From assembly GCF_028583425.1 (NCBI RefSeq), contig NC_072802.1, positions 11,355,926-11,419,925 of the forward strand: a DNA stretch of 64,000 nucleotides, read 5' to 3'. The DNA comes from Eublepharis macularius. Its lineage: Eukaryota; Chordata; Lepidosauria; Squamata; Eublepharidae. The translations under genes were made by a program, and so were the position numbers. Shown here piece by piece: positions 3,267 through 25,870 of the stretch (position 1 is its first letter; each line of letters opens with the position of its first letter). The notes beneath the pieces were generated by a model, which searched no databases, was not told the DNA's origin, and worked only from the letters and a program-made list of their open reading frames with translations.

Positions 3267-3277
3267 ATTCTCAACAA
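3267..3277 (-). promoter_or_regulatory. self-priming primer-binding site of copy A
   Basis: The minus strand reads TTGTTGAGAAT, 2 nt inside the LTR end. It is perfectly complementary to LTR bases 3438-3448 read on the same strand. Spacing and length equal those of copies B and C, but three bases differ. No tRNA-type TGG start is seen. Confidence 0.8.
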
Positions 3278-3279
3278 AA

Positions 3280-3656
3280 TGTCAGACTATGGAATCCCAG
3301 TTATCTAGAGTTCATCTCCCCCCCCTTCTTCAAGAAGCACTAAGTTTCTTGATTCCAAAAGGTTTAATGAAAGACAATGCTCAGGATACAAGTAGCCATA
3401 TTCCAAGGACTAGGAAAGTCTTGGCTGAACAAAAGCTTTGTTGAGAATGACATACAAAATGAAAGTAACAACACTTCAAACACCCATTCCCAGCCTCCCC
3501 CCTTAGTCCTGTCTAGAAGGCCTGGGAAGGCGAGGACGTCAAGGTCGGCTGGAACGGGTTGATAAGAATTCTTCGCACCCATGGATATATGCGGCTTGGA
3601 CAGCACCTGGGCCTGGAGGGAGAGAACTAAACAGCTACAGATTATAACATGAGAAC
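3280..3656 (-). repeat. 5' LTR of chromovirus copy A, U3 end truncated
   Basis: The inner boundary is the TG/CA terminus at 3280, shared with the other chromovirus LTRs. The predicted transcript start (primer segment) is 3438-3448 and an ATTAAA polyadenylation-type signal lies about 80 nt further on (3362-3367). The outer U3 end is missing: the sequence runs straight into a CR1 3' part at about 3657, roughly 50 bp short of the length expected from copies B and C. Confidence 0.75.
3438..3448 (-). promoter_or_regulatory. LTR primer segment of copy A (predicted RNA 5' end)
   Basis: The minus strand reads ATTCTCAACAA, the exact complement of the binding site at 3267-3277. By analogy with Tf1/Sushi self-priming this would be the first 11 nt of the transcript. 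Confidence 0.7.
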
Positions 3657-4723
3657 ATGGCAGTTTGGTGGATAGGTAACTGGTTAGAGGACTGCACTCA
3701 AAGAGTGGTGGTCAACAGCATTTCATCAGATTGGAGGGAGGTGTCCAGTGGGGTGCCACAGGGCTCGGTTTTGGGCCCGGTACTTTTCAATATTTTTATC
3801 AATGATTTGGATGAAGGAGTGGAAGGGCTGCTCATTAAATTTGCTGATGATACCAAATTGGGAGGAGTAGCAAACACCCAAGAAGATAGAATTAAAATTC
3901 AACAAGACCTGAATACTCTGGAGAAGTGGGCAGCTGTGAATAGGATGCAATTGAACAAAGACAAGTATTACATCTGGGCCACAAAAATGGGAAGCACAAA
4001 TACTGGATGGGGGATACACTTCTGGGCAGTAGTATATGTGAAAGGGATCTTGGGGTAAGAGTGGACTGTAAACTAAACATGAGCAGTCAGTGTGATGTGG
4101 TGGCAAAAAAGGCTAATTCAATCTTGGGTTGTATCAAAGGGGCCATAGCGTCAAAATCGCAGGAGGTCATAGCCCCTCTCTATACTACCTTGGTCAGTCC
4201 ACATCTGGAGCATTGTGTGCAGTTCTGGAGGCCTCACTTCAAAAAGGTTGTGGCCAAAATCGAGAGGGTGCAGAGGAGAGCGACGAGGATGATCAGGGGT
4301 CTGGAGACTGAGCCCTACAAGGAAAGGCTAAGGGCCTTGGGAATGTTTAGTTTGGAGAAGAGGAGTTTGAGGGGGGACATGATTACTCTCTTTAAATATT
4401 TGAAAGGCTGTCATTTGGAGGAGGGCAAGGAGCTGTTCCAGTTGGCAGCAGAGGGTAGGATGCGAAGCAATGGGCTTAAATTACATGCTCAAAGGTACCA
4501 GCTGGATATTAGGAAAAACTTTTTCACGGTCAGAGTAGTTGAAAAGTGGAATCAGCTGCCTAGGGAGGTGGTGAGCTCCCCCTCACTGGCAGTTTTCAAG
4601 AAGAGGCTGGATGAAGACTTGTCAGAGATGCTTTAGGCTGATCCTGCACTGGGCAGGGGGTTGGACTAGATGGTCTGAATGCCCCCTTCCAACTCTATGA
4701 TTCTATGATTCTATGATTCTATG
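3657..4723 (+). mobile_element. CR1 LINE, 5'-truncated, 3' end complete
   Basis: This is the C-terminal third of the CR1 reverse transcriptase, including an FADDTKLGG box (about 3841-3865) and the arginine-rich [10 protein letters not shown] segment. It ends in the short tandem ATTCTATG repeat that marks CR1 3' ends (4700-4723). The frame changes at about 4007-4058, so the copy is dead. The same segment recurs on both strands at 26.5, 36.5, 39.5, 42.5 and 61 kb. Confidence 0.95.
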
Positions 4724-5440
4724 GCGTAGCTATGGCTTGAGAACTGAGTAGCAAACTGTCACTCTGACAGATATTGATCAAATGCATGACTCTTTTTCCC
4801 ACATGAGGGTGCTCACTGTAGCCAAGGAAGAATGAGAAGAGAGCAGCATTCTGCACAATAGTAAACCCTTATGGCAGTTTGTTAGATGCTAGCATGTAAC
4901 TTGTTGCCTAGCTAAAAGCCGGCATAATGAGATCAAAAGGTGTATGTGCCATCGTCACCCAGTCTGGCCCAGAGTAGCTGGATCTGATCAGATACATGCG
5001 AGCCGACTTGCAGCTTGCCCACTCTCCTTGCTGTGCACACTTGCTGGAAATAGAGTCACTTGGACATTGCACGCCTCTGTGCCTTTCTGCCAGCAACAGC
5101 CTCAGTAAGAAAGCTGCTGTAGGCTATTGGGAAGAGATGAATAATTCACAGCAAAGACTTCATTGGAAAATGGTGCTCATTCTGAGTCAGTGAAACTTCT
5201 TTAGGTTAAAGCAAGAATGTGAGCACTGATGGTTTTCTATATTTAAAAAAAAATAAGAGGAACCTTGCAGGATCAGTAGTCCCTCATCCTCTTTCCAAAG
5301 GAGGCCTGCCAGGCACTTCTGGGAAGCTTATATGCAGGGCATAAATGCACAAGTTCTCTCCTGTTTCCAGTCCCTAGCATCTCCTGGCATTCAGAGGTAT
5401 ACTGCCCCTGAACATGGATGTTCCATTTAGTCATCCTTAT
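4724..5440. other. unclassified single-copy-looking stretch
   Basis: I see no ORF, tandem array or repeat family shared with the rest of the window here. Confidence 0.5.
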
Positions 5441-5650
5441 TAGTCTGTTCCTCCATGATCTTGTCCAGTACTCTTTTAAAGCTACTTAACTCTTTGGCCA
5501 TCATCACATCCTGTGGGAAAGAATCCCACAGGTTTTTCTTTTGTAAAAAGGGGCTTCCTCATCTGTCCTGATTCTACTCTCTGTCAGTTTCATTGAGTGA
5601 TCCCTTTTCAACTGTATGAGAAGGGGAGATCATGCTTCCATGTCTTCTGG
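5440..5650 (-). mobile_element. old CR1-like LINE 3' UTR remnant
   Basis: The minus-strand wording (help with a 'catcaccacatcctgtgg' block followed by a 'gaattccacag'-like block) resembles an ancient amniote CR1-type 3' region. Divergence is high and edges are uncertain. Identification is by resemblance only. Confidence 0.4.
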
Positions 5651-6397
5651 AGAAGAAGTCTTCCTTTGCTTGTTTCCTTGGAATTTTATTTTTGCAGGGC
5701 CCTGGAACTTAGTGGAAGATTTTCAGTCTATGATCTGGCCAAACACTAGTAAGTGAGGAAGGAATTCCTTTTTAGGTCATGCTGCATAGAGACCATGTAT
5801 GTGTGTGTTTTGATTTTAGCCTCCTGCTATTCCATGTGGTTTGGTGCTGTTGCTGCAATCTGTATGGTAAGATTATATGATCAATTGGTTCAAGGAGCTA
5901 TTGCTTTCAGCAACAATCGCTTTCTTATCTTTGCTTCCCCATTTAACAAGGCGCAGCCTTGGGAAGCAAAATCACTGAAATCTAAAGTTGCACTTCCTGC
6001 CAATGGTAGTTCAAACTGCAGTGAACTGCATCATACATGAGTAAAGTGATGGAGAACTTCCCATATTTTGGTCAATCTGACCTTCTACTGTGTTTGTGCT
6101 CCCTTTGAGGAAAGCTGTACAGATGATCCACAGCCTGACCTCTCCATATGGACAGATAACTCACTCCAGGGAAGCCATTGCGGATGCCTGAGGGAGGGAG
6201 AGAGCATTTGGAGGAAATACATCTGTGGCCCAACTTCGTTTTCTTTGGGGTAACCTTCCACCCCTCATGCTTGATGAAGAGTTGGACAGCATGAGGAGGG
6301 CTGTGCATCATTTGACAGGATATGTGTGGCCTTCCTTCATAGCCAAAGGACAATGCGAGAGTACCTCTGCGAACGGGAGAAGGGTTGGTGTGGGAAA

Positions 6398-6607
6398 TAG
6401 GGTTGCTACGCTCCAGGAGTTCTCCTTGAATATAAACTGATTTCCAGACTGCAAGGCTCAGTTCCCCAGGAGAAAATGGCTTCTATGTAGAGTGGAATCT
6501 ATGGCATCACATCTCTGCTTAATTCTCTCTCCTCCCCAAACTTGGCCATCCCCAGGTTTTGTCCCCACAAACTCCAGAAATTTCCCAATCTGAAGTTGGC
6601 AACCCGA
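6398..6607. mobile_element. hAT-like MITE (TAGGGTTGCC family), old copy
   Basis: It starts TAGGGTTGC and ends GGCAACCCGA, an inverted terminal pair, with the same internal order (CCAG..GGAGAAAATGGC..CTCCCCAAAC) as copies at 28775, 49054 and 51221. No clear target duplication is left. Confidence 0.7.
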
Positions 6608-6912
6608 CCACACATCCATGAATTTTAGCATTGTCCAGTGATTGGTCTGTGGCTAGGAATGCCAGATCTGACCTCCCAGGCTTCACCTCTGTTGCTCACC
6701 TCAAAGAAAAATGGGAGAAAAAGAAGGGGGAAATAGTGGGGTGCCAGCATCAAGACTGCGGGAAGTGATATGCTGTTGGAATGATTCTCTCAGGTTTGCC
6801 AAAAACTCTGTGGTTTAACCATTGAGTTTTGGAGAATCATAGAGTGTCATGCCAATGCCATGATGTCACATCTGGGTTTTCACCAGAGTTGATGTCACTT
6901 GCTGGCGTGATA

Positions 6913-6918
6913 CCAGTG
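6913..6918. repeat. target-site duplication CCAGTG of chromovirus B, left copy
   Basis: It is identical to bases 13862-13867 directly after the right LTR. Joining the two flanks restores an uninterrupted stretch of the surrounding repeat-rich sequence. Confidence 0.85.
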
Positions 6919-7334
6919 TGTCAGGTCCAGTGTATACCTAAACTGTACTGACTCCATTTTCTAATGCTTCTAGTGTTTGAGTGTTTTCTTCCTAGGTGCA
7001 CCAGTTCCCAGGCACCATTCCCACCGGAGGAGACTGTTTTGTCTAACGCCGTTCCACCAAGCATTGGCCTTGAGGGAGAGCAGCTTCCCAGGACTGAGAG
7101 ATATTGTTTTGAGAACTGTGGGGGGAGGCTGATCCAGATGGGTATTGTTACTCTGTACCTTATGCTTACCCTTCATTGGTAACAATGATCATGTACCATC
7201 CTGAGTCTCCTATTCAGGACAGTGGACTATAATGGACCTTTTCTGCAATAAAGTTTCCTTTTCCAGACACTGGACTTGTGTTTGCCTCTAAAGGGAACCC
7301 GGTAGAGAGTGCCTTATTTAGCCACAGTCTGACA
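6919..7334 (+). repeat. 5' LTR of chromovirus B
   Basis: It begins TGTCAG and ends CTGACA. If transcription starts at the primer segment 7175, U3 is 256 bp and R+U5 160 bp, and the AATAAA at 7247-7252 falls in R, where an LTR needs it. I see no convincing TATA box 25-35 bp upstream of 7175. A 72-codon open frame inside the LTR is present in both copies only because the LTRs are identical. Confidence 0.95.
7175..7185 (+). promoter_or_regulatory. LTR primer segment of copy B (predicted RNA 5' end)
   Basis: ATTGGTAACAA is exactly complementary to 7337-7347. In Tf1/Sushi-type elements the first ~11 nt of the RNA fold back onto the PBS and are cleaved to prime reverse transcription. The role is inferred; the complementarity is seen. 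Confidence 0.78.
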
Positions 7335-7336
7335 TT

Positions 7337-7347
7337 TTGTTACCAAT
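7337..7347 (+). promoter_or_regulatory. self-priming primer-binding site of copy B
   Basis: TTGTTACCAAT lies 2 nt after the LTR end and pairs over exactly 11 nt with 7175-7185; pairing stops on both sides. No match to a usual tRNA 3' end (TGG start) is visible. The gag start codon follows 1 nt later, so there is almost no leader after the PBS. Confidence 0.82.
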
Positions 7348-7348
7348 C

Positions 7349-9988
7349 ATGTCTGAGTCGGGCCCAGCGGAATCCAAGGTTGTCCCGGACAGGGATCCTT
7401 TGTTTGAGCCGTATGTGTCTCCCGACAATCAACCCGTGCAAGCCCAAGACTCCCAGGAGCTGGGAGCAGCCGGGAATGGAACCGGAGTCTCCACTTCCAC
7501 CCCGCCTCTCATCGACCTCAGTACTCGGGGCGAGACCGAAGCCGATCTCGGGGCAAGGCCGAAAGCGACCGCTCTCCCCTTGATTTCGGTACCCACCCCG
7601 TCGGAGTGGGGTGCCCGACCCCGAGAAACCAGAGAGCGTCGGGTAGGTGGGCTCCATCCTCGAGTTTCTATGGAAAGGCGCCGAAGCCTAGGAACCGTCC
7701 TGGAGCTAGATAGCAGCCAATCATGGAGCTATTGGAACAGGACGTTAGAGCAGACGGAGGGGGACACGTCTCGCCGCGGCGCCCTGAGTTGGGATTACTC
7801 CGAACTTGCTCCGTGGAAAGAGCCAACGGAGGTCCCTGAACAAAGTTGGGAGCAGATACAAGGTCGTACCTATGCGGTGGATACCAGCATCTCGGCCGTG
7901 ACGGGTATGGCCAAGGGAATTCTAGCCGCGAGATCGAGAGTCGTCCAAGGGGACCCTCCGCCTTGGGGCCCCTTGTCCCCGGTGAGTGCAACGAATGAAG
8001 CTTCCCTAAGCGAACAACCGGGGGCGAGTCGAATGCAACAGTTAGAAGCTAAACTGATGGATATGGAAGAAAGTTTGGCTCATGCCATCCATTTAATTTC
8101 GGCAATGGGAGCAGGGGAAAGATTATCCCCTGAAGAGATGGCGATACAGATAGCTACCCTTCAAAGTGTCATCTCCTATCCGGTGGAGGATGCCCAGCAG
8201 TGGCCGTCATCTACCGGCGAAGGGGGCACCTATCCGGGCGAATCGGGAGAGCAACCCGAGGAACTTCCCGCACAGCAGGAAATTCCACCGAGAAGGGATG
8301 ACCCGGTTGAGCCACCCGGAGAAACCCCCACCGAACAACCTAATCAGGAAGGGGATGCGCCGCCAGATGAGACTCCCGTTGAGAAGCCTACGGAAGGCGA
8401 AGAAAGGCCAAGTGATGCACCGGTGATACCCCCTCTTACTTCTCCTATAGAGGTCCGGCCGGACCAAGAGGGAGCCCCTCGTCAACCGCCAGACACTGTC
8501 CCCGTCGGGCGACCTACGGGAGAAGGTCCAATAGCGCCCAGAGGACAGCCGCTGCTTCCCAGATTAACAACGCCCGGAGGGGCAAGCCCGCGCGGCCTTC
8601 CACCTGTTCAACCCTCGCCGCTGCGGCCCCTCTTACCTCGACCGCAGCTCATACCGGTGCAGCAGCCCCAGGACCAGCCCATCTTACCACCTCCGAACCA
8701 ACCGGGACGGCCAGCGCCACTACGACCCCTCCGACCACCTCCGCAGCGGCCGATCCCCAATCAACCACACCAACCTCCTCCACCTCGACAACCACCGCCA
8801 ACGCCTCCCGTGTTACCCGCCAGACCGAGAATACCGCCGCCTGCTCGCCCGCCATTGCAGCCGCCGGCCCAACCAAGACCAACCCCGACAGCTCAACCAC
8901 GGCAACCTCCGCCCGCACCACCAGCTCAACCCCAGCCGGCACCGCCGGCTCAACCGCCGCCGGTACAGCCGGCCCCGTTGCCCCGTCCGAGACCCCAGTT
9001 ACCTCCTCCTGTGCCTCAGGGGCAACTAGAAATGCCGATGGACTTTTACCCAGCGCCTGCTCCGAGACAAGAACTCCCGATGGGCTGGGTGAAGCTGGAA
9101 GCCACCTTCGATGGGGATCCCTCCAAACTGGGATTTTTCTTAGTACAGGTGGTACAGTTTTTCAACCGTTGGGGACACCTGTTCGGCAGTGAGGCCAGTC
9201 AAATCGAACATCTTGGATCTCGTCTACAGGGTAAGGCAGCAGACTGGTATGTAGGACTATACAATGTCGGGGCCCCAGAACTTGATACTCTCCAGGGGTT
9301 AGTGGATGCTATCCGTGCCCAATATGAAGACCCCTTAGAGGAAACCAGGGCCCGAACAGAATTGCAAGCCCTCAAACAAGGCAGCATGTCAGCAAGAGAC
9401 TATGTTACAAAATTCCGACAATTAGCCGCCAAGTGTCCTAGGTGTGAGGAGTCCACCAAAATTATTCTGTTCAAACAAGGCCTTAACCCGAGACTTTTGG
9501 ACAGAGCCCTCATGCAAGACAATCCCCCCACGCTGTTAGGGTGGATCCAACTTGTTTGCGAAGTGGAGAACCGCATTTTGGAAGTCCGTTTGGTTGAACA
9601 ACAACAACAAACGGGACAAAGAAGACCGTTGACCTTACAGAGGACAACACGGGGAGCTAGCTACGCCACCCGTGGAGCGAGAGATGCTAGATGGCAACAA
9701 GGACTGTGCTTGCATTGCGGACAGGCAGGTCACTTTGCAGCACAATGCCCTTACCGGCCTGTGCCAAGACCTCCGCTCCAACTACGGCGTCCAACCCCGG
9801 CTTCGTTCCCTACGCTCCAACGCCCGACTCCAGCACCCCGGACGAATAGAGGCCGCGGCACTTCCCAAAGGCCAGCCTCAGAGAGAGGGCTGGAAGCGGA
9901 AGAAGTCATGGAATACGATCCCGCTTCCCCAACCGCAGAGGTCAATCCAGAAAGTCCCCAGTCGGGAAACGAAATGGATCTGTCGTAA
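7349..9988 (+). CDS. gag polyprotein of chromovirus B
   Basis: The product has 879 residues and would form the retrotransposon particle in the cytoplasm. I chose ATG 7349 because the frame upstream is the PBS and LTR and offers only a TTG. The order is: a low-complexity N-terminal region (1-300) with the W-G-A-R-P-R-E-T-R-E-R-R motif and a short helical stretch; a very proline-rich region (about 300-575, dense P-x-x-P and Q-P repeats, nt 8250-9070); a gypsy-type capsid (about 577-770, starting near the GWVKLEATF motif); and a CCHC zinc knuckle at 787-800 with full C-X2-C-X4-H-X4-C. It ends NEMDLS. The capsid-plus-knuckle part is of usual Sushi/PEG10 size, so roughly 575 residues are extra. 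Frame and stop are intact. Confidence 0.95.
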   Translation: MSESGPAESKVVPDRDPLFEPYVSPDNQPVQAQDSQELGAAGNGTGVSTSTPPLIDLSTRGETEADLGARPKATALPLISVPTPSEWGARPRETRERRVGGLHPRVSMERRRSLGTVLELDSSQSWSYWNRTLEQTEGDTSRRGALSWDYSELAPWKEPTEVPEQSWEQIQGRTYAVDTSISAVTGMAKGILAARSRVVQGDPPPWGPLSPVSATNEASLSEQPGASRMQQLEAKLMDMEESLAHAIHLISAMGAGERLSPEEMAIQIATLQSVISYPVEDAQQWPSSTGEGGTYPGESGEQPEELPAQQEIPPRRDDPVEPPGETPTEQPNQEGDAPPDETPVEKPTEGEERPSDAPVIPPLTSPIEVRPDQEGAPRQPPDTVPVGRPTGEGPIAPRGQPLLPRLTTPGGASPRGLPPVQPSPLRPLLPRPQLIPVQQPQDQPILPPPNQPGRPAPLRPLRPPPQRPIPNQPHQPPPPRQPPPTPPVLPARPRIPPPARPPLQPPAQPRPTPTAQPRQPPPAPPAQPQPAPPAQPPPVQPAPLPRPRPQLPPPVPQGQLEMPMDFYPAPAPRQELPMGWVKLEATFDGDPSKLGFFLVQVVQFFNRWGHLFGSEASQIEHLGSRLQGKAADWYVGLYNVGAPELDTLQGLVDAIRAQYEDPLEETRARTELQALKQGSMSARDYVTKFRQLAAKCPRCEESTKIILFKQGLNPRLLDRALMQDNPPTLLGWIQLVCEVENRILEVRLVEQQQQTGQRRPLTLQRTTRGASYATRGARDARWQQGLCLHCGQAGHFAAQCPYRPVPRPPLQLRRPTPASFPTLQRPTPAPRTNRGRGTSQRPASERGLEAEEVMEYDPASPTAEVNPESPQSGNEMDLS
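9964..9970 (+). promoter_or_regulatory. -1 ribosomal frameshift site GGGAAAC (gag to pol)
   Basis: In the gag frame it reads G GGA AAC, 18 nt before the gag stop. The pol frame is -1 relative to gag and is open from 9850, so slippage here yields a gag-pol fusion. The same heptamer drives -1 frameshifting in PEG10 and in some retroviruses. It is kept at the same place in copies A and D. I did not model a downstream pseudoknot. Confidence 0.8.
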
Positions 9989-12900
9989 GAGGACCCAAAC
10001 GACAGATCCCCACTAAGCCCGTCCCTACACGGAACCGGTCGCCTGGGTCCATCTTATTCATGCCAGTGACTCTAATCAACCCAGAGAGAAAGATGCACAT
10101 TCGGGTACAAGCTCTTATTGACTCGGGCTGCTCAAGAGACATTATTGCCCCTGCGTTAGTCAATGGACTAGTCCTACCAACTCGGGATTTACAAAATCCA
10201 GTGATCTTTGAACAAATGGATGGTACCAACATGAATCCTGTAACAACGGAAACCATCCCAGTGATTACAGGCATGGGACAACATTGGGAGAAGAGGTCCT
10301 TTGTCATCAGCTCTACTGCCAAGTACCCGTTAATTCTAGGCAGTAAATGGCTATGTGATCACAATCCCTATATAGACTGGGCACAAGGATGTATTACCTT
10401 CAGTCATACCAACTGTAAAAATCACCGTTGGAATCAGAACTGGGGCGAAGATCCAACTCATAAAGAAAAGGCCCTTCTCACCCAAGAAGAAGTCAGCCAA
10501 ATACCCGAACCGTACTGGCCTTTTCTAAATGCTTTCTCTGAGGAGGAAGCGGATACTCTACCCCCGCACCGACGAACGGACTGTGCGGTAGAAATTCTAC
10601 CCGGAGCCTCACTGCCCAAAGGACGGCTCTATCCCATGAGTCTCCACGAACGTGAAGAGCTTCGGAAATTCATTGACACCAACCTCCGACGAGGGTTCAT
10701 ACGCCCAGCCACTAGCCCCCACGCCGCTCCGGTCCTCTTCGTGAAAAAGAAGGATGGGGGACTCCGACTGTGCACGGATTTCCGAGGATTGAATGCAGTG
10801 TCCACAAACAACGCCTATCCTATCCCGCTCATCCGAGACCTTCTCAACGTCGTGGCCCAAGGTAAGATCTTTACGAAATTAGATCTAAAAGATGCTTACT
10901 TTCACGTTCGTATCAAGGCAGGGGATGAGTGGAAAACCGCTTTCAATACGCCCCTCGGACAATATGAATACTTGGTTATGCCTTTTGGTTTGACGAGAGC
11001 CCCCTCTGTATTCATGTCCATGATAAACGAAGTTCTACACGAATTTCTGTACAAAGGGGTGGTGGTGTACCTTGATGATGTGTTGATTTATTCGGACAAC
11101 GAGGAGGAACATATTCAAACAGTACAAAAAGTCTTAGCCACCCTGATGAAGAATAATCTGCCCATCAAGTTGTCCAAATGTGAATTCCATAAAACCGAAC
11201 TCACTTACCTCGGGTATTGCATCTCCCAAGAAGGTCTGAAAATGGATCCAGCCAAAATACAGGCGATCCAAGACTGGCAGACACCCACCACCCGTAAAGA
11301 ACTACAATCCTTCCTGGGGTTTGCCAACTTCTATAGAGACTTCATAGCAAATTTCGCCCAAATCACGCTCCCCTTAACAGACTTGCTCAAAACCAAAGAT
11401 AAAGGGGACCAAGCTAAAAAACCTTCTTCCAAACTGCTATGGACCCCCGATTGCCAAACAGCCTTCGAATGTCTAAAAAAGCAATTTGTAACGGAACCCG
11501 TCCTCTCCCACCCCAACGACCAAGCCCCTTTCATAGTACAGGTTGACGCCAGAGATACAGCGATAGGGGGAGTTCTGCTACAGAAGGGGGAGGATGGGAG
11601 ACTGCGGCCTTGTGCTTTCTTGTCTAGAAAATTTTCGGAGGCGGAAAGGAATTGGAATGTGTGGGAGAAGGAGGCCTTTGCAGTAAAAGCAGCCCTCACT
11701 AACTGGAGACATTGGCTAGAGGGGGCGCGATACCCTTTCGAGGTCTGGACGGACCATAAAAATCTGGAGGCCCTCCGAAGCCCACGCAGACTGAATGCTA
11801 AGCAATTGCGATGGGCGGAATTCTTTTCCAAATTCAACTTCACTCTAAATTATCTCCCGGGCAAAACTAACTTTTTAGCGGACGCCCTATCGCGCATGCC
11901 CCAACACAAGAGCAAAAGGGAGGAGACTGTCGACACTGTCTTCTCGCCTACGCAACTTGGGGGCGTGGTGACCACTCGCAGTCGAGCCAAGCAGCCCCTC
12001 CCGGCCAACCAAGGGTGGAAATCGAAACTCAAAACTGAAGTGGAAAAGGAGGGGGATGCAGCTCCACGAAACAAACTGACCCAATCCCCACACGGGGATT
12101 GGCTAGCTGGGAGCAAATTTTATGTCCCAAACAGCCTCAGGCTGGAGGTCTTGCAGCGCTGTCATGATGCTCCCACTGCTGGACATTATGGGTATTTAAA
12201 AACTTTGCACCTGATCCAAAGACAATTCTGGTGGCCGGGCATGCGCAAAGACATTTCCCAGTACGTTAGTTCCTGCCCTATTTGCCTCAGCGCCAAAACC
12301 AGGAAAGGGAAGCCTCCGGGTCTCCTGCAACCATTGGAAACACCAAACAGGCCCTGGGAAATAATATCCATGGACTTTATCACTGATCTACCTATCTCTA
12401 AAGGACATAATTGTATTTTAGTTGTGGTAGATCTGTTCTCCAAGCAAGCTCATTTTGTCCCTTGTACTGCTATACCCTCTGCTCGAAAACTAGCGGATTT
12501 GTTTCTGAAACACATCGTAAAATTACATTCTTTTCCGTCCAAGGTGATTTCGGATCGCGGCGGACAGTTCGTTGCCAACTTCTGGCGGGAGCTTTTGAAA
12601 ATGTTGAATATTGAGCAAGGCATCAGTTCAAGCCACCACCCACAAACCGACGGGCAATCCGAAAAAACAAACCAAATATTAGAACAATTCCTTCGTTGCT
12701 ACATCAATTTTCAACAAGATAATTGGGTGGACCTCCTCCCCTTGGCCGAGTTCTCATATAACAACAGTGTACACGCTTCTACGGGGGAGGCCCCCTTCAA
12801 AATTGTCTACGGAGCCCACTTCAATCCCTTCCCGTTGGACGCGCCCCCTCTCCATTCCTCCAAATTGCCAGATGTATCTTCATGGTGGGGGGAGGCGACA

Positions 12901-13434
12901 CAGCAATGGACTCTTATTAAAAAGCACCTCGAAAAAGCCAAACTGGATTACAAAAAATACGCAGACCGCCATCGTGTGGCCGAGTGGGAATTACAACCCG
13001 GAGATCACGTGTATATTTCCACAAAGAATCTGAAACTAGCTCAGACAAGCCGCAAACTCGCTCTGAAATTCCTAGGACCTTTTCCTGTGCGCAAGATAAT
13101 AAATAAAGTGACTGTTGCTGTAACTTTACCCAAGAACCTGCGCCATGTGCATGATACGTTCCATGTCAGTCTTCTAAAGAGAGCTCCAACCGACAACAAA
13201 TGGCACGTCAAAGCTCCACCCATTCCAACTTTGATTGACGACCAAATACACTATGAGGTACAACAGATCTTGGACTCTAAACTCAAACGAAATCAGCTTT
13301 TTTACCTCATTAGATGGAAGGACTTTGATTCTGGTTACGATGAATGGGTGAATTCTGCACATGTTCATGCTCCTAGATTAACCAAAGCTTTTCATGCTCG
13401 CTACCCATATAAACCAGGGGGGGATTTGTTTTAA
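9970..13434 (+). CDS. pol of chromovirus B (protease, RT, RNase H, integrase, chromodomain)
   Basis: It is open for 1,154 codons counting from the frameshift; the first ATG in frame is 10060 (numbering below from it). Protease: DSG at 21-23. Reverse transcriptase: LDLKDAYF with Asp275, YLDD at 337-340. RNase H: VDA with Asp496 up to the DALSR motif. Integrase: HHCC zinc-binding N-terminus about 700-745, catalytic Asp772, Asp832, Glu868, which gives exact DD35E spacing. A GPY-type C-terminal part is followed by a chromodomain (about 1065-1115) with Tyr1065, the Trp of IRWK and the Phe of KDF at the places of the HP1 aromatic cage. No stop or frameshift is seen. The likely product is a gag-pol fusion; separate initiation at 10060 is not excluded. 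Confidence 0.95.
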   Translation, partial: RNGSVVRGPKRQIPTKPVPTRNRSPGSILFMPVTLINPERKMHIRVQALIDSGCSRDIIAPALVNGLVLPTRDLQNPVIFEQMDGTNMNPVTTETIPVITGMGQHWEKRSFVISSTAKYPLILGSKWLCDHNPYIDWAQGCITFSHTNCKNHRWNQNWGEDPTHKEKALLTQEEVSQIPEPYWPFLNAFSEEEADTLPPHRRTDCAVEILPGASLPKGRLYPMSLHEREELRKFIDTNLRRGFIRPATSPHAAPVLFVKKKDGGLRLCTDFRGLNAVSTNNAYPIPLIRDLLNVVAQGKIFTKLDLKDAYFHVRIKAGDEWKTAFNTPLGQYEYLVMPFGLTRAPSVFMSMINEVLHEFLYKGVVVYLDDVLIYSDNEEEHIQTVQKVLATLMKNNLPIKLSKCEFHKTELTYLGYCISQEGLKMDPAKIQAIQDWQTPTTRKELQSFLGFANFYRDFIANFAQITLPLTDLLKTKDKGDQAKKPSSKLLWTPDCQTAFECLKKQFVTEPVLSHPNDQAPFIVQVDARDTAIGGVLLQKGEDGRLRPCAFLSRKFSEAERNWNVWEKEAFAVKAALTNWRHWLEGARYPFEVWTDHKNLEALRSPRRLNAKQLRWAEFFSKFNFTLNYLPGKTNFLADALSRMPQHKSKREETVDTVFSPTQLGGVVTTRSRAKQPLPANQGWKSKLKTEVEKEGDAAPRNKLTQSPHGDWLAGSKFYVPNSLRLEVLQRCHDAPTAGHYGYLKTLHLIQRQFWWPGMRKDISQYVSSCPICLSAKTRKGKPPGLLQPLETPNRPWEIISMDFITDLPISKGHNCILVVVDLFSKQAHFVPCTAIPSARKLADLFLKHIVKLHSFPSKVISDRGGQFVANFWRELLKMLNIEQGISSSHHPQTDGQSEKTNQILEQFLRCYINFQQDNWVDLLPLAEFSYNNSVHASTGEAPFKIVYGAHFNPFPLDAPPLHSSKLPDVSSWWGEATQQWTLIKKHLEKAKLDYKKYADRHRVAEWELQPGDHVYISTKNLKLAQTSRKLALKFLGPFPVRKIINKVTVAVTLPKNLRHVHDTFHVSLLKRAPTDNKWHVKAPPIPTLIDDQIHYEVQQILDSKLKRNQLFYLIRWKDFDSGYDEWVNSAHVHAPRLTKAFHARYPYKPGGDLF

Positions 13435-13445
13435 GGGGGGCAGAA
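13435..13445 (+). promoter_or_regulatory. polypurine tract of chromovirus B
   Basis: The purine run GGGGGGCAGAA lies between the pol stop and the TG of the 3' LTR. Copy C has the near-identical AGGGGGCAGAA in the same place. It would prime plus-strand synthesis. Confidence 0.85.
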
Positions 13446-13861
13446 TGTCAGGTCCAGTGTATACCTAAACTGTACTGACTCCATTTTCTAATGCTTCTAG
13501 TGTTTGAGTGTTTTCTTCCTAGGTGCACCAGTTCCCAGGCACCATTCCCACCGGAGGAGACTGTTTTGTCTAACGCCGTTCCACCAAGCATTGGCCTTGA
13601 GGGAGAGCAGCTTCCCAGGACTGAGAGATATTGTTTTGAGAACTGTGGGGGGAGGCTGATCCAGATGGGTATTGTTACTCTGTACCTTATGCTTACCCTT
13701 CATTGGTAACAATGATCATGTACCATCCTGAGTCTCCTATTCAGGACAGTGGACTATAATGGACCTTTTCTGCAATAAAGTTTCCTTTTCCAGACACTGG
13801 ACTTGTGTTTGCCTCTAAAGGGAACCCGGTAGAGAGTGCCTTATTTAGCCACAGTCTGACA
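13446..13861 (+). repeat. 3' LTR of chromovirus B
   Basis: It has the same 416-bp length as the 5' LTR and I see no mismatch. AATAAA lies at the equivalent position (about 13774). Confidence 0.95.
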
Positions 13862-13867
13862 CCAGTG
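13862..13867. repeat. target-site duplication CCAGTG of chromovirus B, right copy
   Basis: It directly follows the CTGACA end and is identical to 6913-6918. Confidence 0.85.
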
Positions 13868-17150: not shown

Positions 17151-17345
17151 TTCATTTATTTATTTATTTACTTCATTTAGCCCCTGCCTTACTCCCCAAT
17201 GAGACCTCTCTGCTCCTCCATTTTATCCTCACAACAACCCTGTGAGGTAGGTGTGTGAGAGTGCCTGGCCCAAGATCACCTGGCAAGCTTTCATGGCAGA
17301 GTAGTGTTTGGACTTGGGTGTCCCAGATCTTATTTCAACCAGCTA
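17151..17345 (-). mobile_element. MIR-like SINE, minus strand
   Basis: It has a (TTTA)n tail at its left end, a 'caagatcacctggcaagc' type core and an L2-like 3' part read on the minus strand. The tRNA-like head is diverged. Confidence 0.55.
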
Positions 17346-17352
17346 ACAGAAC

Positions 17353-17369
17353 ACACAGACACAGACACA

Positions 17370-17407
<38 letters not shown>
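17353..17407. repeat. (CA)n microsatellite
   Basis: A run of CA with an ACACAG variant at the left end. Confidence 0.95.
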
Positions 17408-17408
<1 letters not shown>

Positions 17409-17665
17409 GGAGTTTATAACATTAGATTTATATAGCGCCCTTCAGGACAATTTAATGCCCACTCAGAGCAGTTTACAAAGTATGTTATTATTATCCCCAC
17501 AACAAAACACCGTGTGAGGTGGGTGGGGCTGAGAGAGCTCCAGAGAACTGTGACTAGCCCAAGGTCACCCAGCTGGCTTCAACTGGAGGAATGGGGAATC
17601 AAACCCGGCTCTCCAGATTAGAGTCCTGCCGCTCTTAAACACTACACCAAACTAGCTCTCTGGCT
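17408..17665 (-). mobile_element. tRNA-derived SINE with L2-like tail, full length
   Basis: On the minus strand: an A box (TGGTGTAGTG...) and B box (GGTTTGATTCC) give a tRNA-like pol III head. These are followed by the core 'ccagctgggtgacct' and a 3' end 'gtcctgaagggcgctata' shared with L2-type LINE tails. The same family occurs at 31040, 51955, 53262 and 57636. Confidence 0.85.
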
Positions 17666-18957
17666 TTATCCAACATGAACTGCTATTTGAAAGCAAACAT
17701 AACCAGGAGAGGACAACCAATATAAATAATCATTTAAGTAACCTACAAAACTAGAATAATAAAATTGTAAAATGCATAAGGATCTAATGCACAGAATTTT
17801 TTTTAATGAAAAAAGAATCACAGAATGTCCATATGAAAATCCATTAATCTACTCCCAAATAATAGATCTTTCCAGATCATTCCCGGTCTATAACATTTAC
17901 TGAGGCCCAACACAATAAAAACTGATTGGCCCTGATTCTACAAACACTTCAATAGCAGCCAAATTCCGAATTAAAGTGAACCTCAGCAGTAAATTGTTCA
18001 CCTTCTGGCAAAGAATTCAACAAATGAAATGACAATCCTGCAGTTTTTCCAGTGCCAGCAATGGGCAAAGATAGGAAGGTGATATTAAGCGTCTGTTGTT
18101 CTAAGACTTCTTCTAAGCTCTTCTATCTAATGCTTCCATCAGAATCAATCCTCAATATTCACAGGCATCTTCCGTAGTAAAGCTTGTCACAAACTTGGGA
18201 GCGCTGGTTCCTTAAGGTACTGAGAAAAAGCTGGGATAGGACAGGGGAACTTGTATTGCTTTCCTATTTAAATTCACCCTAAGCCTTAATTTTCTCCTGA
18301 ATTGGGTACTTGATTACTTCTAAACACAGCACACCGGAGGTGGTCCACCTTCGTGTGCTCATCACCTAACTAGTCTGGGTAGCTTGCAATGAGCAGCAAA
18401 GCCAAGTGATTGTTGATCTGGATGGTTTCTTACTGCTGCATTGCATCATTTTGCTTCCGTGCTTTCTGCTCATTCTTAGCTGTATTGGGAGATAGAAAAG
18501 GTACAGCAGTTCTCTGCATTTCACTGGTGCTTCTCAGGACGGCTTTGCTCTTTTAGATTTAGGACCACACATCTGCCGGTAACCATGTCTGTCTGAACAG
18601 TGAATAGGTACCTGTCCATTGGCATCAGCTACATTGGTCAAGTTCAGTAGGGATGGGGTGGGCATCACAATACACATCTGCATTGGAGTTCAGATTGAGA
18701 AGTGCACAGACCTTCCTGCATATGCATGAGTGCATGCCAAAATGTACCTCATACCATGTGAAGCAGAGCTATGTGTGCATGCTTTGTGTGTGCTAAAGGG
18801 AATTGTGCTGAAAAGTGGCTCCTTGCAACCAGAGATGCTCAAACAATCACCAGTTTGGCTCATCGACTGTTCGCTGGTGGCAAACAGGGAGCTGATGTTC
18901 ACTGAGCAATTTGATGGTTTGTGAGCAGTTTTCATTTGACAGGCTACTTTTCACACA
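17666..18957. other. unclassified stretch
   Basis: It is AT-rich intronic-looking sequence. I see no supported gene and no repeat shared with the rest of the window. Confidence 0.5.
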
Positions 18958-19019
18958 TTCAAATGTGTACGCAAGGTAAAAGAGGTAAAAGAGGTACCTT
19001 GTGTACGCAAGGTAAAAGA
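18958..19019. repeat. short tandem duplication at a CR1 5' junction
   Basis: GTGTACGCAAGGTAAAAGAGG occurs twice about 37 bp apart, immediately before recognisable CR1 sequence. It may be a copying artefact of the CR1 insertion. Confidence 0.6.
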
Positions 19020-19052
19020 GGCAATTGGACCGCTGTTGGGAATAGATGGAGA
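19020..19052 (+). mobile_element. CR1 LINE, left fragment split by chromovirus C
   Basis: It reads in frame as the CR1 segment G-P-L-L-G-I-D-G-E, continuing exactly at 25871 after removal of the LTR element and one copy of its 5-bp duplication. Confidence 0.8.
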
Positions 19053-19474
19053 TGTCAGAACTGTGGCTAGATAATGTCATTACTCCAGATTACCTTCTGC
19101 AATCAGACAAAAGCCCGTTGTTTGTAAAAGTTTACTGAAGAAAGAATGCATTATAGTCCACGAGCCTAAATACAATATTCAGGATGGTACATGTGAATTG
19201 TTACCAATGACAGGCAAAGCATGAGGTACAAAGTAACAGATCCCAGCAGGCCCAACCTCCCCCCATAGTTCTCAAAACAATCCCTTTGAAGCTAGGAAAG
19301 CGAAAGTCCTTCAAGGCTGGTTCTTGATGGAACAGCAGTAGCCAAAACAATCCTTCTCTGTGAGATAGCTGCTTGGGAACCTTGGCACCTGTGAAGAAAG
19401 CACTTAAACACTGAAAAGATTTAAAATGGAGTAGGTTAGGCAAGAACATACATGAGAGCATTCTGAACCTGACA
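19053..19474 (-). repeat. 3' LTR of chromovirus C
   Basis: It has TG/CA ends like copy B. The 11-nt primer segment is at 19198-19208. An AGTAAA motif takes the place of AATAAA. Confidence 0.93.
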
Positions 19475-19486
19475 TTCTGCCCCCTC
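19475..19486 (-). promoter_or_regulatory. polypurine tract of chromovirus C
   Basis: The minus strand reads AGGGGGCAGAA directly before the 3' LTR, overlapping the pol stop. Confidence 0.8.
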
Positions 19487-22400
19487 TAAGATGCTCCCCC
19501 CCCAGGTTTATGTGGGTAACGAGAATGGAACGCTTTGACTAATCTAGGAGCATGAACATGTACAGAATTCACCCACTCATCAAACCCAGAGTCAAAGTCC
19601 TTCCATCTGATAAGGTAAAACAGCTGATTTCTTTTCCATTTAGAGTCCAAAATTTGCTGAACTTCGTAGTGAGTCTGATCATCTATCAAAGTTGGTATAG
19701 GAGGGGCACGGATGTGCCACTGGTCTGTAGGAGGAGCCTTTTTTAACAGACTGATATGAAAAGTATCGTGTACGTGGCACAATTTTTTTGGTAAATCTAA
19801 GGCAACAGTCACTTTGTTGATCACTTTACGAACAGGAAAGGGTCCAAGAAATTTCAACGCGAGCTTACGGCTGGTTTGAGTCACTTTCAGATTCTTTGTG
19901 GAAAGATAGATAAGATCGCCGGGTTGTAAATCCCAATCAGCCGCACGGTGGTGGTCGGCGTATCATTTGTAATCCTCTTTGGCTTTGTCGAGATGTTTTT
20001 TAATTTGAATCCATTGTTGAGCAGCTTCCCCCCACCATTCCGTTACGTCTCTGGAAGCCGCAGTAGGAGGGGGGAGCGCTTCAAACGGGAAGGGTTTGAA
20101 ATGGAAGCCATAAACGACTTTGAAGGGAGTTTCTCCTGTGGAGGCGTGCACGCTGTTATTGTAAGAGAATTCTGCCAGGGGGAGCAAATCGACCCAATTA
20201 TCTTGTTGGAAGTTAATATAACAGCGGAGAAATTGTTCTAGGATTTGATTAGTTTTTTCTGATTGTCCGTCGGTTTGAGGATGATGACTTGAACTTAAAC
20301 CTTGTTCAATATCTAGCATTTGTAAAAGCTCCCGCCAGAAGTTGGCAACGAACTGTCCGCCGCGATCCAAAATCACCTTAGACGGAAAAGAATGTAATTT
20401 TACAATGTGTTTCAGAAAAATATCCGCCAGTTTTCTAGCTGAAGGTATAGTGGTGCAAGGTATAAAGTGTGCTTGCTTGGAGAATAAATCCACTACGACC
20501 AGAATACAGTTGTGACCTTTGGAGGGGGGTAAATCAGTGATAAAGTCCATGGATATTACTTCCCACGGTCTGCTTGGTGTTTCTAAAGGTTGTAATAATC
20601 CGGGAGGCTTGCCTTTGCGGGATTTGGCACTGAGGCAAATGGGGCAGGATGCTACATATTGAGAAATGTCCTTGCGCATGCCTGGCCACCAAAATTGACG
20701 CTGTACCAAATGAAGCGTCTTTAGGTACCCATAGTGTCCTGCTGTAGGGGCATCGTGACAGCGCTGCAAGACTTCTTTTCTTAAACTGTCTGGTACATAA
20801 AAGCGGTCCCCCCACAGCCATTCCCCTTGTTTCGATTGTTGCAGTTTGTCTTTGGGCACTTTCCCCCCCTCCTTTTCCACTTCAGCTTTCAGCTTCAACC
20901 TCCACCCCTGATCGGGCTGAGGGGGCTGGACAGTGCGACTGCGCGTTGTTACCACACCCCCTAATTGCGTAGGTGAAAAGACGGTGTCTATAGTCTCCTC
21001 CCTTTTGCTTTTGTGTTGGGGCATGCGCGAGAGGGCATCTGCAAGAAAGTTAGTTTTGCCCGGCAAAAAGTTTAAAGTGAAATTGAATTTGGAAAAGTAT
21101 TCTGCCCAGCGCAGCTGTTTAGCATTTAGTCTTCGAGGGCTGCGTAGGGCTTCTAAATTTTTATGGTCCGTCCAGACCTCGAATGGATGACGGGGCCCCT
21201 CTAACCAATGCCTCCAGGTAGTGAGAGCTGCCTTTACAGCAAATGCCTCCTTTTCCCACACGTTCCAATTTCTTTCTGCTTCAGAAAATTTTCGGGACAG
21301 GAATGCACAGGGCTTGAGTTTCCCATCCTCCCCCTTTTGCAAAAGTACGCCCCCAATTGCGGTGTCACTGGCGTCGACCTGGACTACAAAGGGGCGATTC
21401 TCATCGGGGTGTTGGAGGGCGGGTTCGGGAACAAATTGCATTTTGAGAAGGTCGAATGCCTCTTGGCATTCCCGTGTCCAAGGCAATTTGGCACTCGGCT
21501 TTTTGGCATTGTCCCCCTTGTCTTTAGTTTTTAACAGTTCGGTTAGGGGGAGTGTAAGTTGAGCAAAGTTTGCAATGAACTCCCTATAAAAGTTGGCGAA
21601 GCCTAAAAAAGATTGTAGTTCCTTGCGGGTAGCGGGAGTTTGCCAATTTTGGATTGCTTGTACTTTGCTCGGATCCATTTTTAAGCCATCTTTGGAGATG
21701 CAGTAGCCCAAATAAGTGAGTTCTGTTTTGTGAAATTCACATTTAGAAAGTTTGATGGGCAGTTTGTTACACATTAGTGTGGTCAGAACTCTTTTTACAA
21801 GATCCACGTGTTCCTCCTCAGATTGTGAATAGATTAAGATATCATCTAGGTAAACCACAACCCCTTTGTACAAAAATTCATGTAATACCTCATTGATCAT
21901 GGACATGAAAACCGACGGGGCCCCAGCTAGACCAAACGGCATAACCAAATATTCATACTGGCCGAGGGGTGTGTTAAAAGCGGTTTTCCATTCGTCCCCT
22001 GCTTTGATACGAACGTGGAAGTAAGCATCTTTCAAGTCCAATTTCGTAAAGATCTTACCTTGGGCCACGACGTTGAGTAGATCTCTAATGAGCGGGATGG
22101 GATAGGCATTGCTGGAAGAAACAGCGTTAAGTCCTCGAAAGTCCGTGCACAGTCTTAAGCCTCCGTCCTTCTTCTTGACGAAGAGCACTGGCGCAGCATG
22201 CAGACTGTTGGCAGGTCGAATAAACCCTCTTTGAAGATTGGTGTCGACGAACTTGCGGAGTTCTTCCCTTTCGTTAGGGCTCATGGGATATAGGCGACCC
22301 TTGGGCAGGGAGGCACCCGGTAAAATTTCCACAGCACAGTCCGTCCTCCTATGAGGAGGTAAAGTATTCGCTTCTTCTTCTGTAAAAGCTTGGGTGTAAG

Positions 22401-22950
22401 CTCTGTATTGCTTGGGTATTTGGTTGATTTCTTCTTGGGTGAGGAGAGCAGGCTCAGTGATGGTAGGGTTGGTGCCCCAATTTTGATTCCAGCGGTGACT
22501 TTTGCAAGCCTCATGGGTGAATGTGATGCTTCCCTCTGCCCAGTTGATGTAGGGGTTGTGATCGCATAACCATCGGCTTCCCAGGATCAAGGGGTATTTG
22601 GCGGTGGCACTAATAACGAATGATCTTACTTCCCAATGTTGCCCCATGCCTGTTATGACCGGAGTGGTTTCGGTAGTGACTGGATTCATATTAGTGCCAT
22701 CCATTTGCTCAAAGATGACAGGCGTTTCCAATTCTTTGATAGGAAGTATTAATCCATTTACTAGGGCTGGTGCAATAATGTCTCTAGAGCAGCCCGAGTC
22801 TATCAGTGCTTGCACACGGATGTGCATTTTCCTGTCTGAGTTCACTAAAGTTACTGGTATGAAGAGTATGGACCCTTGGGGTCTGTTCGAAATAGGAACT
22901 GACTGAGGTTTGATCTGCCGTTTGGGTCCTTTTACGACAGATCCATCTCG
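19486..22950 (-). pseudogene. pol of chromovirus C, one internal stop
   Basis: The pol is nearly complete and co-linear with copy B: DSG protease, YLDD reverse transcriptase (AGAPSVF instead of RAPSVF before it), RNase H, HHCC and DDE integrase, chromodomain. The residue before the second catalytic Asp is Leu (LDRGGQF) where copy B has Ser. A TGA at 19963-19965 replaces the lysine codon of copy B. It cuts the protein before the GPY/chromodomain part, which continues in the same frame to 19486. A truncated integrase lacking its targeting domain could still be translated, but only if gag and frameshifting worked. Confidence 0.93.
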
Positions 22951-25425
22951 TTTCCTGAGATGGGACTCTCTGGATTCCCCTCTCCAGTTAGAGCGGTTGG
23001 ATCATATTCCATAACTTCTTCCAGCTCTAACCCTCTTTCGGAGGGGTTCCCCCGAGGGGCTCCTCTGCCTCTCGCTGTTCGAGGAGCTGGTGTTGGGCGC
23101 GGTGGCGCGTGGTAGGTGGTGGGGGCTGGACGTCGTAGCTGGAGTGGAGGTCTTTGCACAGGCCGGTACGGGCATTGCGCTGCAAAATGACCACCTTGGC
23201 CACACTGCAGGCACAACCCTTGTTGCCATCTAGCATCTCTCGCTCCGCGAGTAGCATATCCAGCGCCTCTGCCTCCTCTGACAAGAACTGAGGAGTGCCT
23301 TTGTCCTGTATGTTGCTGTTGTTCCACTAATTTGACTTCTAGTAAGCGGTTTTCAACTTCACAGGTTAATTGAATCCATCCCAGTAGAGTGGGAGGGTTA
23401 TCTTGCATTAGGGCTCTATCCAACTGCCTAGGATTTAAGCCCTGTTTGAACAAAATTATTTTGGTCGATTCTTCACACCTTGGGCATTTAGCGGCCAGTT
23501 GTCGGAATTTCGTAACATAGTCTCTAGCCGACATACTGCCTTGCCGTATAGACTGTAATTCAGTCCGAGCTCTCGTTTCTTCTAGAGGGTCTTCATATTG
23601 GGCTCGAAGTGCATCTACTAGCCCTTGAAGAGTATTTAATTCGGGGGCACCAATATCATAAAGTCCTACATACCAGTCTGCAGCTTTGCCTTGGAGTCTC
23701 GAGCCCAGGTGTTCGATTTGACTGGCCTCACTCCCGAAAAGGTGTCCCCATCGATTAAAGAATTGCACCGTTTGTTGTACAAGGAAAAATCCCAACTTGG
23801 ATGGGTCTCCATCAAAAGTAGCTTCCAATTTCACCCAGCCCATGGGGAGTTCTTGCCTGGGGGCTGGCGCTGGCATTGGGTAAACGTCGAGCGGGGCGAG
23901 TGATAAAGGAGACTGTCGTGGTGTTGGAGGTAGTGGCAGCGGAGGTTGCTGAGGATAACGTTGAGGCTGTTGTGGAGGAGGCCCTCTAGGTACAGGTTGT
24001 AGCGGCGCTGGCCGTAAAGGTGCTGGCTGAATTGGCGGTGTGCTTCTAGGCGCCGGCAATCTGGGTGCTGGTAACAGAGGAATGGGAGCCGGTCCTTGGG
24101 GTGCCGGTTGTAACGGGGTTGGGTGAAGAGGAATAGGCTGCAGAGGTAACGGAGTCCCTCCTGGAATAGGCTGATTTGGTGTTAGGGTCCCTCTCGGTCC
24201 CGGCGTTTGGTGTGGTCGGGGAGTGGTACCTCTACCAATCGCGCTTGTCCCCGGTATGATACGCGGCGTACCCCCTCTCGGTAGTACTGGTTGCTCACTC
24301 TCTTGGGTCGTGGGTGGAGGTGCTACTGGGGAAGCGGGCCTCACGGGGCGTTCTGGTTCCCCACCTCCTCCGCCGCTTCCGTTGTCAGTTGGTACGATTG
24401 GACCTTCTGGGCAAGGATTTTCTGGACGGGGTCCTTCTCCATTATCAGGCTCAGGATCTCCTGGTTGTCGCGGCCACAGCTGGATTGGGTCCTCAGGACA
24501 TGGATCTTCTGGACAGGGTCTGTCCCCAGTTTCGGACCCAGAATCTCCAGTTTCGGGTGGCTGTTGCGGCCACGGCTGGAGAGGGCCCTCAGGGCGGGGC
24601 ACAAGGCTTTGTAAAGTAGACAAACTTTGACTGATGTCTGGTAGACCAGTTGGCGGTTCTCGTCCACTGTCCCCCCACCACAAGTACAGATAGTAGGTGG
24701 ACGGCATGGGCTAAACTCTCTTCCATGCTTGCTAGTCTGGTCTCCAAAACTTGCACTCTGTCTGGATTCACCTCCTCCTGTTCGGTATAACCAGTAGCTT
24801 GCGAGGTAGGCACATATTCAGTACGTGGCCTCGGTAGACCAGGTATGATTTCTTCCACTCCTTGTTCTTCTTGAGATCTTGCAGCTAAGATCCCTTTCAC
24901 CAAACCAGTGATTGCTGATATCCCAGAGTCAATTGCAATCGTTCTGCTTTGAAGCTGGACCCACTGGTGCTCACTTACGTCCTGTTGCCCCGACCACGGG
25001 GTGACTTCCTAATAATCCCAGCTTAGGGCGCCACGGCGGGACGTCTCCCACTCCGTTTGTTCGGTCGTCCTGTTCCAGTAAAGCCACGGTTGGCTGCTGG
25101 CATGCTCAGGTATTGACTCCAAACTGCGCCGACTATCCATCTGTGTTTGCGTGAACATCGTACTGGCCCTTCGTTCCCTTGTCTCCCTTGGTCTTGCGCC
25201 CCACTGCGTCAGAGTGGGTATGGAAAACAGTGGTTCGGCTGTAGCTCTGGGCCGGGTATCTGCACTGCTGGGAATGAGAGTGTAGAGCGTAGTAACCGAG
25301 GAGCCGTTTCCTCTTGGTACAGGTTCTTGAGGTTCCAATCCTTGAGAGCCGGGGGAGGCATACGGGTCAAACAAAGGATCCCTGAGCGGGACAGCTTTGG
25401 AGTCCGTTTGATCCGGCTTAGGCAT
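22932..25425 (-). pseudogene. gag of chromovirus C, stop plus frameshift
   Basis: The start ATG at 25425 is the first in frame after the PBS. The N-terminus has the same P-x-R-D-P-L-F-x-P-Y motif as copy B. A TAG at 25009-25011 ends the first block, and a length change in the C run at about 24671-24676 shifts the frame. The remaining 591-codon frame (from 24707) contains a proline-rich region, the capsid and an intact CCHC knuckle, and ends NEMDLS. Expression of full gag is not possible without correction. Confidence 0.92.
22950..22956 (-). promoter_or_regulatory. decayed -1 frameshift heptamer (AGGAAAC) of copy C
   Basis: It sits at the position of GGGAAAC in the other copies. The first G is now A, which fits deamination of the CpG in TCGGGAAAC. 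Tandem slippage should be weakened. Confidence 0.7.
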
Positions 25426-25435
25426 TGGAAAAGTG

Positions 25436-25446
25436 ATTGGTAACAA
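25436..25446 (-). promoter_or_regulatory. self-priming primer-binding site of copy C
   Basis: The minus strand reads TTGTTACCAAT, 2 nt inside the 5' LTR, complementary to the LTR segment 25594-25604. Confidence 0.82.
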
Positions 25447-25448
25447 AA

Positions 25449-25870
25449 TGTCAGAACTGTGGCTAGATAATGTCCTTACTCCAGACTACCTTCTGCAATC
25501 AGACAAAAGCCCGTTGTTTGTAAAAGTTTACTGAAGAAAGAATGCATTATAGTCCACGAGCCTGAATACAATATTCAGGATGGTACATGTGAATTGTTAC
25601 CAATGACAGGCAAAGCACGAGGTACAAAGTAACAGATCCCAGCAGGCCCAACCTCCCCCCATAGTTCTCAAAACAATCCCTTTGAAGCTAGGAAAGCGAA
25701 AGTCCTTCAAGGCTGGTTCTTGGTGGAACAGCAGTAGCCAAAACAATCCTTCTCTGTGAGATAGCTGCTTGGGAACCTTGGCACCTGTGAAGAAAGCACT
25801 TAAACACTGAAAAGATTAAAAATGGAGTCGGTTAGGCAAGAACATACATGAGAGCATTCTGAACCTGACA
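25449..25870 (-). repeat. 5' LTR of chromovirus C
   Basis: It is 422 bp with about seven differences from 19053-19474. The primer segment lies at 25594-25604 (minus ATTGGTAACAA); U3 from there to the outer end is 266 bp, close to the 256 bp in copy B. Confidence 0.93.

Follow-up and report, generated by a model that had tools for sequence, protein, structure and literature searches.

Thousands of related LTR retrotransposons in a reptile genome appear to start copying with the first 11 nucleotides of their own RNA

Priming of reverse transcription by the element's own RNA is already known from LTR retrotransposons of the Tf1/sushi type in fungi and vertebrates, as described in the available sections of PMC10085805, PMC6317226 and PMC4600332. 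In Tf1 and Tf2 of Schizosaccharomyces pombe, the first 11 bases of the RNA are complementary to the primer binding site (PBS), and RNase H cuts between bases 11 and 12 (available text of PMC7175516). Self-primer/PBS pairs and potential pretzel leaders were inferred from sequence in Tj1, Tosmo and Tcry1 of other fission yeasts (excerpts of PMC4600332 and PMC10085805). Among vertebrates, chromoviruses of the V-clade (sushi-ichi, Amn-ichi and others) are self-priming according to Butler et al. 2001, whose report is cited by PMC10085805 and PMC6317226. No description of self-priming in reptiles was found in the open literature searched; this literature omits the main papers, and the result therefore carries little weight.

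The DNA analysed here, referred to as the window, is a stretch of 64,000 nucleotides from Eublepharis macularius. It contains three LTR retrotransposon copies, A (minus strand), B (plus strand) and C (minus strand), of which A is truncated at the window start (Table 1). Pfam matches along the pieces of copy B follow the Ty3/gypsy order protease, reverse transcriptase (RT), RNase H and integrase, the domain set of copy C is the same as that of copy B, and the integrase piece has its best match among solved structures in Ty3 (7q5b). All three copies belong to the Ty3/gypsy LTR retrotransposons. A chromodomain (PF00385) was detected beside SH3_Tf2-1 (PF24626) in copy B (E 7.5e-08) and in copy C (E 2.7e-08), where it is located behind an in-frame stop between the integrase core and the SH3/chromodomain frame. 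Their Pfam domains, including the chromodomain, identify B and C as chromoviruses. Both have a polypurine tract 5' of the 3' LTR, and the identity of its two LTRs suggests that copy B is young. No Pfam match was obtained with the piece 2068-3270 of copy A, and one piece of the copy B pol frame had no match in IMG/VR. Two relatives were retrieved with the gag piece in the protein search: a Eublepharis macularius protein (66%, with 48% of the query covered) and a Crotalus adamanteus protein (31%, with 53% covered). The search with the C-terminal piece of copy C retrieved three unnamed proteins.

Table 1. Features of the three retrotransposon copies, in positions of the window
Feature	Position	Strand	Remarks
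Copy A 5' LTR	3280..3662	-	upstream end inferred from the onset of homology to another repeat; LTR end TGACA, then TT and PBS
Copy A self-primer ATTCTCAACAA	3438..3448	-	presumed RNA nt 1-11
Copy A PBS TTGTTGAGAAT	3267..3277	-	preceded by TT spacer 3278-3279
Copy A internal region	1..3266	-	truncated at window start; RT match in frame 1-555
Copy B 5' LTR	6919..7334	+	416 bp; 416/416 bases identical to 3' LTR
Copy B self-primer ATTGGTAACAA	7175..7185	+	presumed RNA nt 1-11
Copy B poly(A) signal AATAAA	7247..7252	+	3' of the 11-mer
Copy B PBS TTGTTACCAAT	7337..7347	+	preceded by TT spacer 7335-7336
Copy B gag open frame	7322..9988	+	Retrotrans_gag, Ty3_capsid (Pfam)
Copy B pol open frame	9850..13434	+	protease, RT, RNase H, integrase, SH3_Tf2-1, chromodomain
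Copy B polypurine tract AAGGGGGGCAGAA	13433..13445	+	
Copy B 3' LTR	13446..13861	+	identical primer 11-mer at 13702
Copy B flanking duplication CCAGTG	6913-6918 and 13862-13867		
Copy C 5' LTR	25449..25870	-	98.3% identity to 3' LTR
Copy C self-primer ATTGGTAACAA	25594..25604	-	presumed RNA nt 1-11
Copy C PBS TTGTTACCAAT	25436..25446	-	preceded by TT spacer 25447-25448
Copy C gag and pol frames	19486..24710	-	gag/pol 22932-24710 and 19963-23001; SH3/chromodomain frame 19486-19962
Copy C 3' LTR	19053..19474	-	identical primer 11-mer at 19198
Copy C flanking duplication TCTCC	19048-19052 and 25871-25875		

Other repeats are also present in the window. A dispersed repeat was observed at 36660-36959, 39578-39877 and 42629-42928, with inverted relatives at 4198-4715, 27197-27572 and 61160-61437 (similarity among copies of up to 98%). 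Copy A seems to be inserted at or in this repeat, as its LTR abuts one of the repeat copies near 3662. A tandem array at 39940-40910 harbours eight copies at a spacing of about 106-110 nt, the others being 63-95% alike to the reference copy. Long and largely complementary inverted repeats at 58595-58820 and 63578-63761, whose loops measure about 90 nt and about 5 nt, are perhaps foldback elements.

An earlier note on this window had described an 11-nt site in each of the three copies, complementary to a segment within the LTR. The six coordinates proved right and each pair is complementary at 11/11 positions (in copy A the complementarity extends to 12 nt). As also described there, B and C have ATTGGTAACAA in common and A has ATTCTCAACAA, and the three differing bases differ in both partners. 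By contrast, the site had been placed 2 nt inside the 5' LTR, and it actually lies 2 nt downstream of the LTR end, after a TT spacer. This position, 2 nt beyond the LTR end, matches the usual place of the PBS in LTR elements. The first base of the partner is at LTR position 257 in B and 267 in C; in A it is at position 248 of the stretch used, which corresponds to 215 from the likely LTR start. An exact 11-mer partner was present in 2, 0 and 2 of 20,000 dinucleotide shuffles of the LTR of A, B and C respectively, the stretch shuffled for A (3280-3695) including about 33 nt past the likely LTR start. In copy B, the 11-mer is upstream of the poly(A) signal, as expected for the start of R. The sequence following the LTR is TTTTGTTACC or TTTTGTTGAG, with no tRNA-type TGG at the LTR edge. 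A PBS of the tRNA type was rejected, judging by this absence of TGG.

The pattern used to search the genome (2.24 Gb), CTGACATTTTGTTnnnAATC, constrains the LTR end together with eight of the 11 PBS bases and leaves the R side free. The pattern was found at 3,371 sites and the reversed control at none. As the other eight PBS bases are fixed by the search pattern, PBS variation is visible in the middle triplet only. The R side of the first 100 listed sites was located by a motif blind to this triplet: 87 of these sites had a perfect 11/11 pair, 12 had one mismatch and one had no R partner. Triplets were complementary in 93 sites, non-complementary in six and partnerless in one (an ACC site). Six paired PBS/R haplotypes were present among them (ACC/GGT in 69 sites, ACG/CGT in 8, GAG/CTC in 8, AGG/CCT in 5, GCG/CGC in 2 and GGG/CCC in 1), while the unmatched triplets were ACG/CAT (3), ACA/CGT (2) and ACT/GGT (1). 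Perfect pairs also predominated in an additional 30 G-class copies, rare triplets having been favoured in part of the selection (perfect in 21, one mismatch in 8 and two in 1), and in 20 further AnG copies, picked to include four ATG and eight AGG (14 perfect and 6 with one mismatch). Counting both sides genome-wide, with CATT...AACAA required in R and 138-168 nt between the sites, gave 2,221 matched R GGT / PBS ACC, a single crossed R CnT / PBS ACC, and no crossed R GGT / PBS AnG despite 684 AnG sites. R was CnT in all 36 AnG copies sampled (16 from the first 100 sites plus the 20 further copies). Independent variation of the two segments across the genome copies, which the earlier note had considered as an outcome adverse to its reading, was thus not what the triplets and the crossed types revealed. 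The two-sided scan of prokaryote genomes retrieved three bacterial or archaeal stretches, the rough expectation under equal base use being about 0.4.

Kinship among the copies was considered using representatives drawn from 132 copies, 129 from the genome and three from the window. The partnerless copy of the first 100 (L139) was excluded from the later alignment and tree. In one set of 99 rows, 18 were removed because they repeated identical 190 nt, partly one place taken twice. Complementary triplets were present in 42 of the 50 representatives below 93% identity (shuffled mean 11.8, maximum 25), in all 23 below 88% identity (shuffled mean 6.4, maximum 14 in 20,000) and in seven of the eight below 80% identity (shuffled mean 1.9, maximum 7). 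In the 50 representatives, standard pairs occupied 540 of the 550 cells of the 11 pairs, compared to 115-313 in versions in which the two sites were slid, and there were 7 further pair types (2-5 in the slid versions). Pairs changed on both sides numbered 3, compared to 0-2 in the slid versions; however, one of the six slid controls of the 132-copy set also reached 3, and this count alone is therefore not decisive.

The tree was built from the surrounding sequence with both sites excluded, 57 of its 119 inner branches being weak. For the 111 perfect copies it requires at least seven haplotype changes, a number that is equal for R and PBS labels. Tallied by haplotype, the changes on the tree were five for ACG, three for GCG/CGC, two for GAG and one each for ACC, AGG and GGG. 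Ten locus pairs had identical 190 nt. The whole upstream flank read is shared by L012/L015 and by L017/L019, about 600 nt are shared by L049/L050, and the flank is common in part in L018/L020 and L022/L025. L012/L015, L017/L019 and L049/L050 are apparent segmental duplications in the first 25 Mb of contig C1. As some places are duplicated, site counts overstate the number of independent insertions.

The mismatches look like decay. Tips of the tree were longer in the 21 mismatched copies (median 0.029) than in the 111 perfect copies (median 0.012; one-sided p=0.010), as decay after insertion predicts. One-sided CpG changes were present in five of the 12 mismatched copies of the first 100 (R CAT against PBS ACG in three, two of which are the duplicated pair L012/L015, and PBS ACA against R CGT in two) and in four of the six mismatched copies among the 20 further AnG copies. 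R CGT is still opposite three of the four ATG sites, which is a one-sided CpG change. By haplotype, the six triplet mismatches of the first 100 are divided equally between R and PBS, with three each. One copy (L153) combines PBS ATG and R CAT in a perfect pair, and could correspond to a further haplotype or to two CpG decays.

The primer:PBS duplex was within the predicted minimum-energy structure of the leader in A, B and C. In these models the whole-leader folds were not clearly more stable than shuffles: those of C (z of -2.6) and B (-1.9) surpassed most shuffles, and that of A (-0.6) did not, 54 of 200 shuffles being equally good. The mean pair probability of the primer:PBS duplex was at least 0.5 in 49 of the 50 representatives. 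In the folds, the U5 end pairs with a segment 3' of the primer (GUGG/CCAC in B and C, AUGG/CCAU in A), a further feature in keeping with the Tf1/sushi mechanism. For a hairpin beside the pair in 49 of the 50 representatives, and for the U5-end/R stem in 44, the best pair probability was 0.5 or higher, a measure that takes the best pair per stretch, so that the helix may differ among representatives. The second PBS-flanking duplex of the "pretzel", formed with sequence 3' of the PBS, was not recognised by eye in the leader folds.

We consider it highly probable, judging from the sequence, that A, B and C prime minus-strand synthesis with their own RNA in the manner of Tf1 and sushi, and the 11-nt start of their own RNA appears to replace the host tRNA as primer in thousands of related elements of the genome. 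The observations are the paired anatomy, the absence of TGG, the coding capacity and the covariation of the middle triplet throughout the genome; from these we infer the RNA start, its cleavage and the priming. Transcription would start at the ATT of the LTR 11-mer, and the first 11 nt of the RNA would fold back on the PBS located 2 nt beyond U5. A cut by RNase H after nt 11 would then allow the 11-mer to prime minus-strand DNA. The earlier note had interpreted the covarying pairs as the trace of selection for self-priming. Self-priming of the Tf1/sushi kind is upheld by the pair anatomy, the genome-wide covariation and the absence of TGG, but selection is not established as the cause of the covariation, which could also arise by copying of the primer, as in HIV and SIV (PMC4549124).

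On balance, we lean towards this copying as the origin of the covariation: the plus strand would copy the attached 11-nt RNA primer, and selection would remove unpaired lineages. In HIV and SIV, the primer is copied into the PBS by the plus strand (available text of PMC4549124). If the plus strand did the same here, a change in nt 1-11 of R would be written into the PBS and could reappear there within one cycle. The Tf1 self-primer is reportedly not removed, according to the title of Atwood-Moore et al. 2006, and such retention would fit this route. Copying of the primer predicts the near absence of crossed types (1 and 0), including the swap of C:G for G:C that wobble is unable to bridge. For the stronger proposal, that the PBS of self-primed retrotransposons is rewritten from the first 11 nt of the RNA in each cycle, with the R start and the PBS evolving as one locus and many haplotypes turning over within a genome without unpaired intermediates, we see the chances as evenly balanced.

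The covariation might instead be due to selection only, with separate mutations in R and in the PBS and the second favoured because it restored pairing. The haplotype changes on the tree, at least seven and all with pairing kept, are compatible with this explanation, and ACG to GCG and GAG to GGG could have passed through a G-U pair. The change between ACG/CGT and ACC/GGT has no such wobble intermediate, as it swaps C:G for G:C, and the unpaired intermediates are nearly absent (one R CnT / PBS ACC, no R GGT / PBS AnG), although they could be old and lost. Moreover, the primer-templated route requires just one mutation and has a retroviral precedent (PMC4549124, in the text available). We regard selection only as a possible but less likely explanation.

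The pairing itself might be a leader structure serving packaging or translation, with a tRNA or another RNA as the primer. The hairpin (49/50) and the U5-end/R stem (44/50 representatives) that adjoin the pair are in line with such a role. Nevertheless, the site is exactly 2 nt beyond the LTR end, the usual place of the PBS, and lacks TGG, and the same layout self-primes in Tf1 and was inferred to do so in its relatives (available parts of PMC7175516 and PMC10085805); we consider this role instead of self-priming very improbable. It is very unlikely that recombination or template switching between co-packaged RNAs generated the covariation by moving R and PBS as a block: the short distance of about 160 nt would allow them to move jointly, but a block transfer moves existing pairs and is unable to make a new matched pair, and ACC forms one group among the perfect copies on the surrounding-sequence tree. 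Fortuitous complementarity inherited by the copies is hardly credible even though the three window copies are kin and represent no more than two haplotypes, and chance and simple ancestry were rejected on the shuffles (11 nt reached in at most 2 of 20,000), on the six paired haplotypes among the first 100 copies and on the complementary triplets of the 23/23 representatives below 88% identity, the genome-wide counts (2,221 matched compared to 1 and 0 crossed) also speaking against them.

Primer copying with removal of unpaired lineages is the explanation that we tentatively prefer for the covariation, and self-priming is the highly probable one for the pair. Yeast and vertebrate relatives have already revealed the mechanism; its evolution can be traced here within one genome. 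The addition made here is a reptile genome in which the sites number thousands and the first 100 of them hold six paired haplotypes. The 3,371 sites and these haplotypes constitute a natural experiment on whether matching is kept by selection or by the chemistry of copying, a question beyond the reach of a few copies. If it is kept by copying, covariation, which is usually regarded as proof of selection on RNA pairing, would be no such proof here. The pair may also serve as a signature of self-primed LTR elements where annotation seeks tRNA sites only.

The elements resemble Tf1 and Tf2 in the 11-nt segment of the 5' LTR complementary to the PBS and in the chromodomain (here in B and C). They differ from them in the vertebrate host, in a cleavage that is deduced, and in the recognition of only a single side duplex out of two. 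Tj1, Tosmo and Tcry1 have self-primer/PBS pairs as here, but in fungal hosts. The inheritance of the PBS in HIV and SIV differs in the primer, which is a host tRNA there and the 5' end of the element itself here. In host, they are like the vertebrate sushi-type elements of the Tf1/sushi group, chromoviruses that reportedly self-prime. Beyond the reports on those elements, this window adds the covariation of haplotypes inside one genome.
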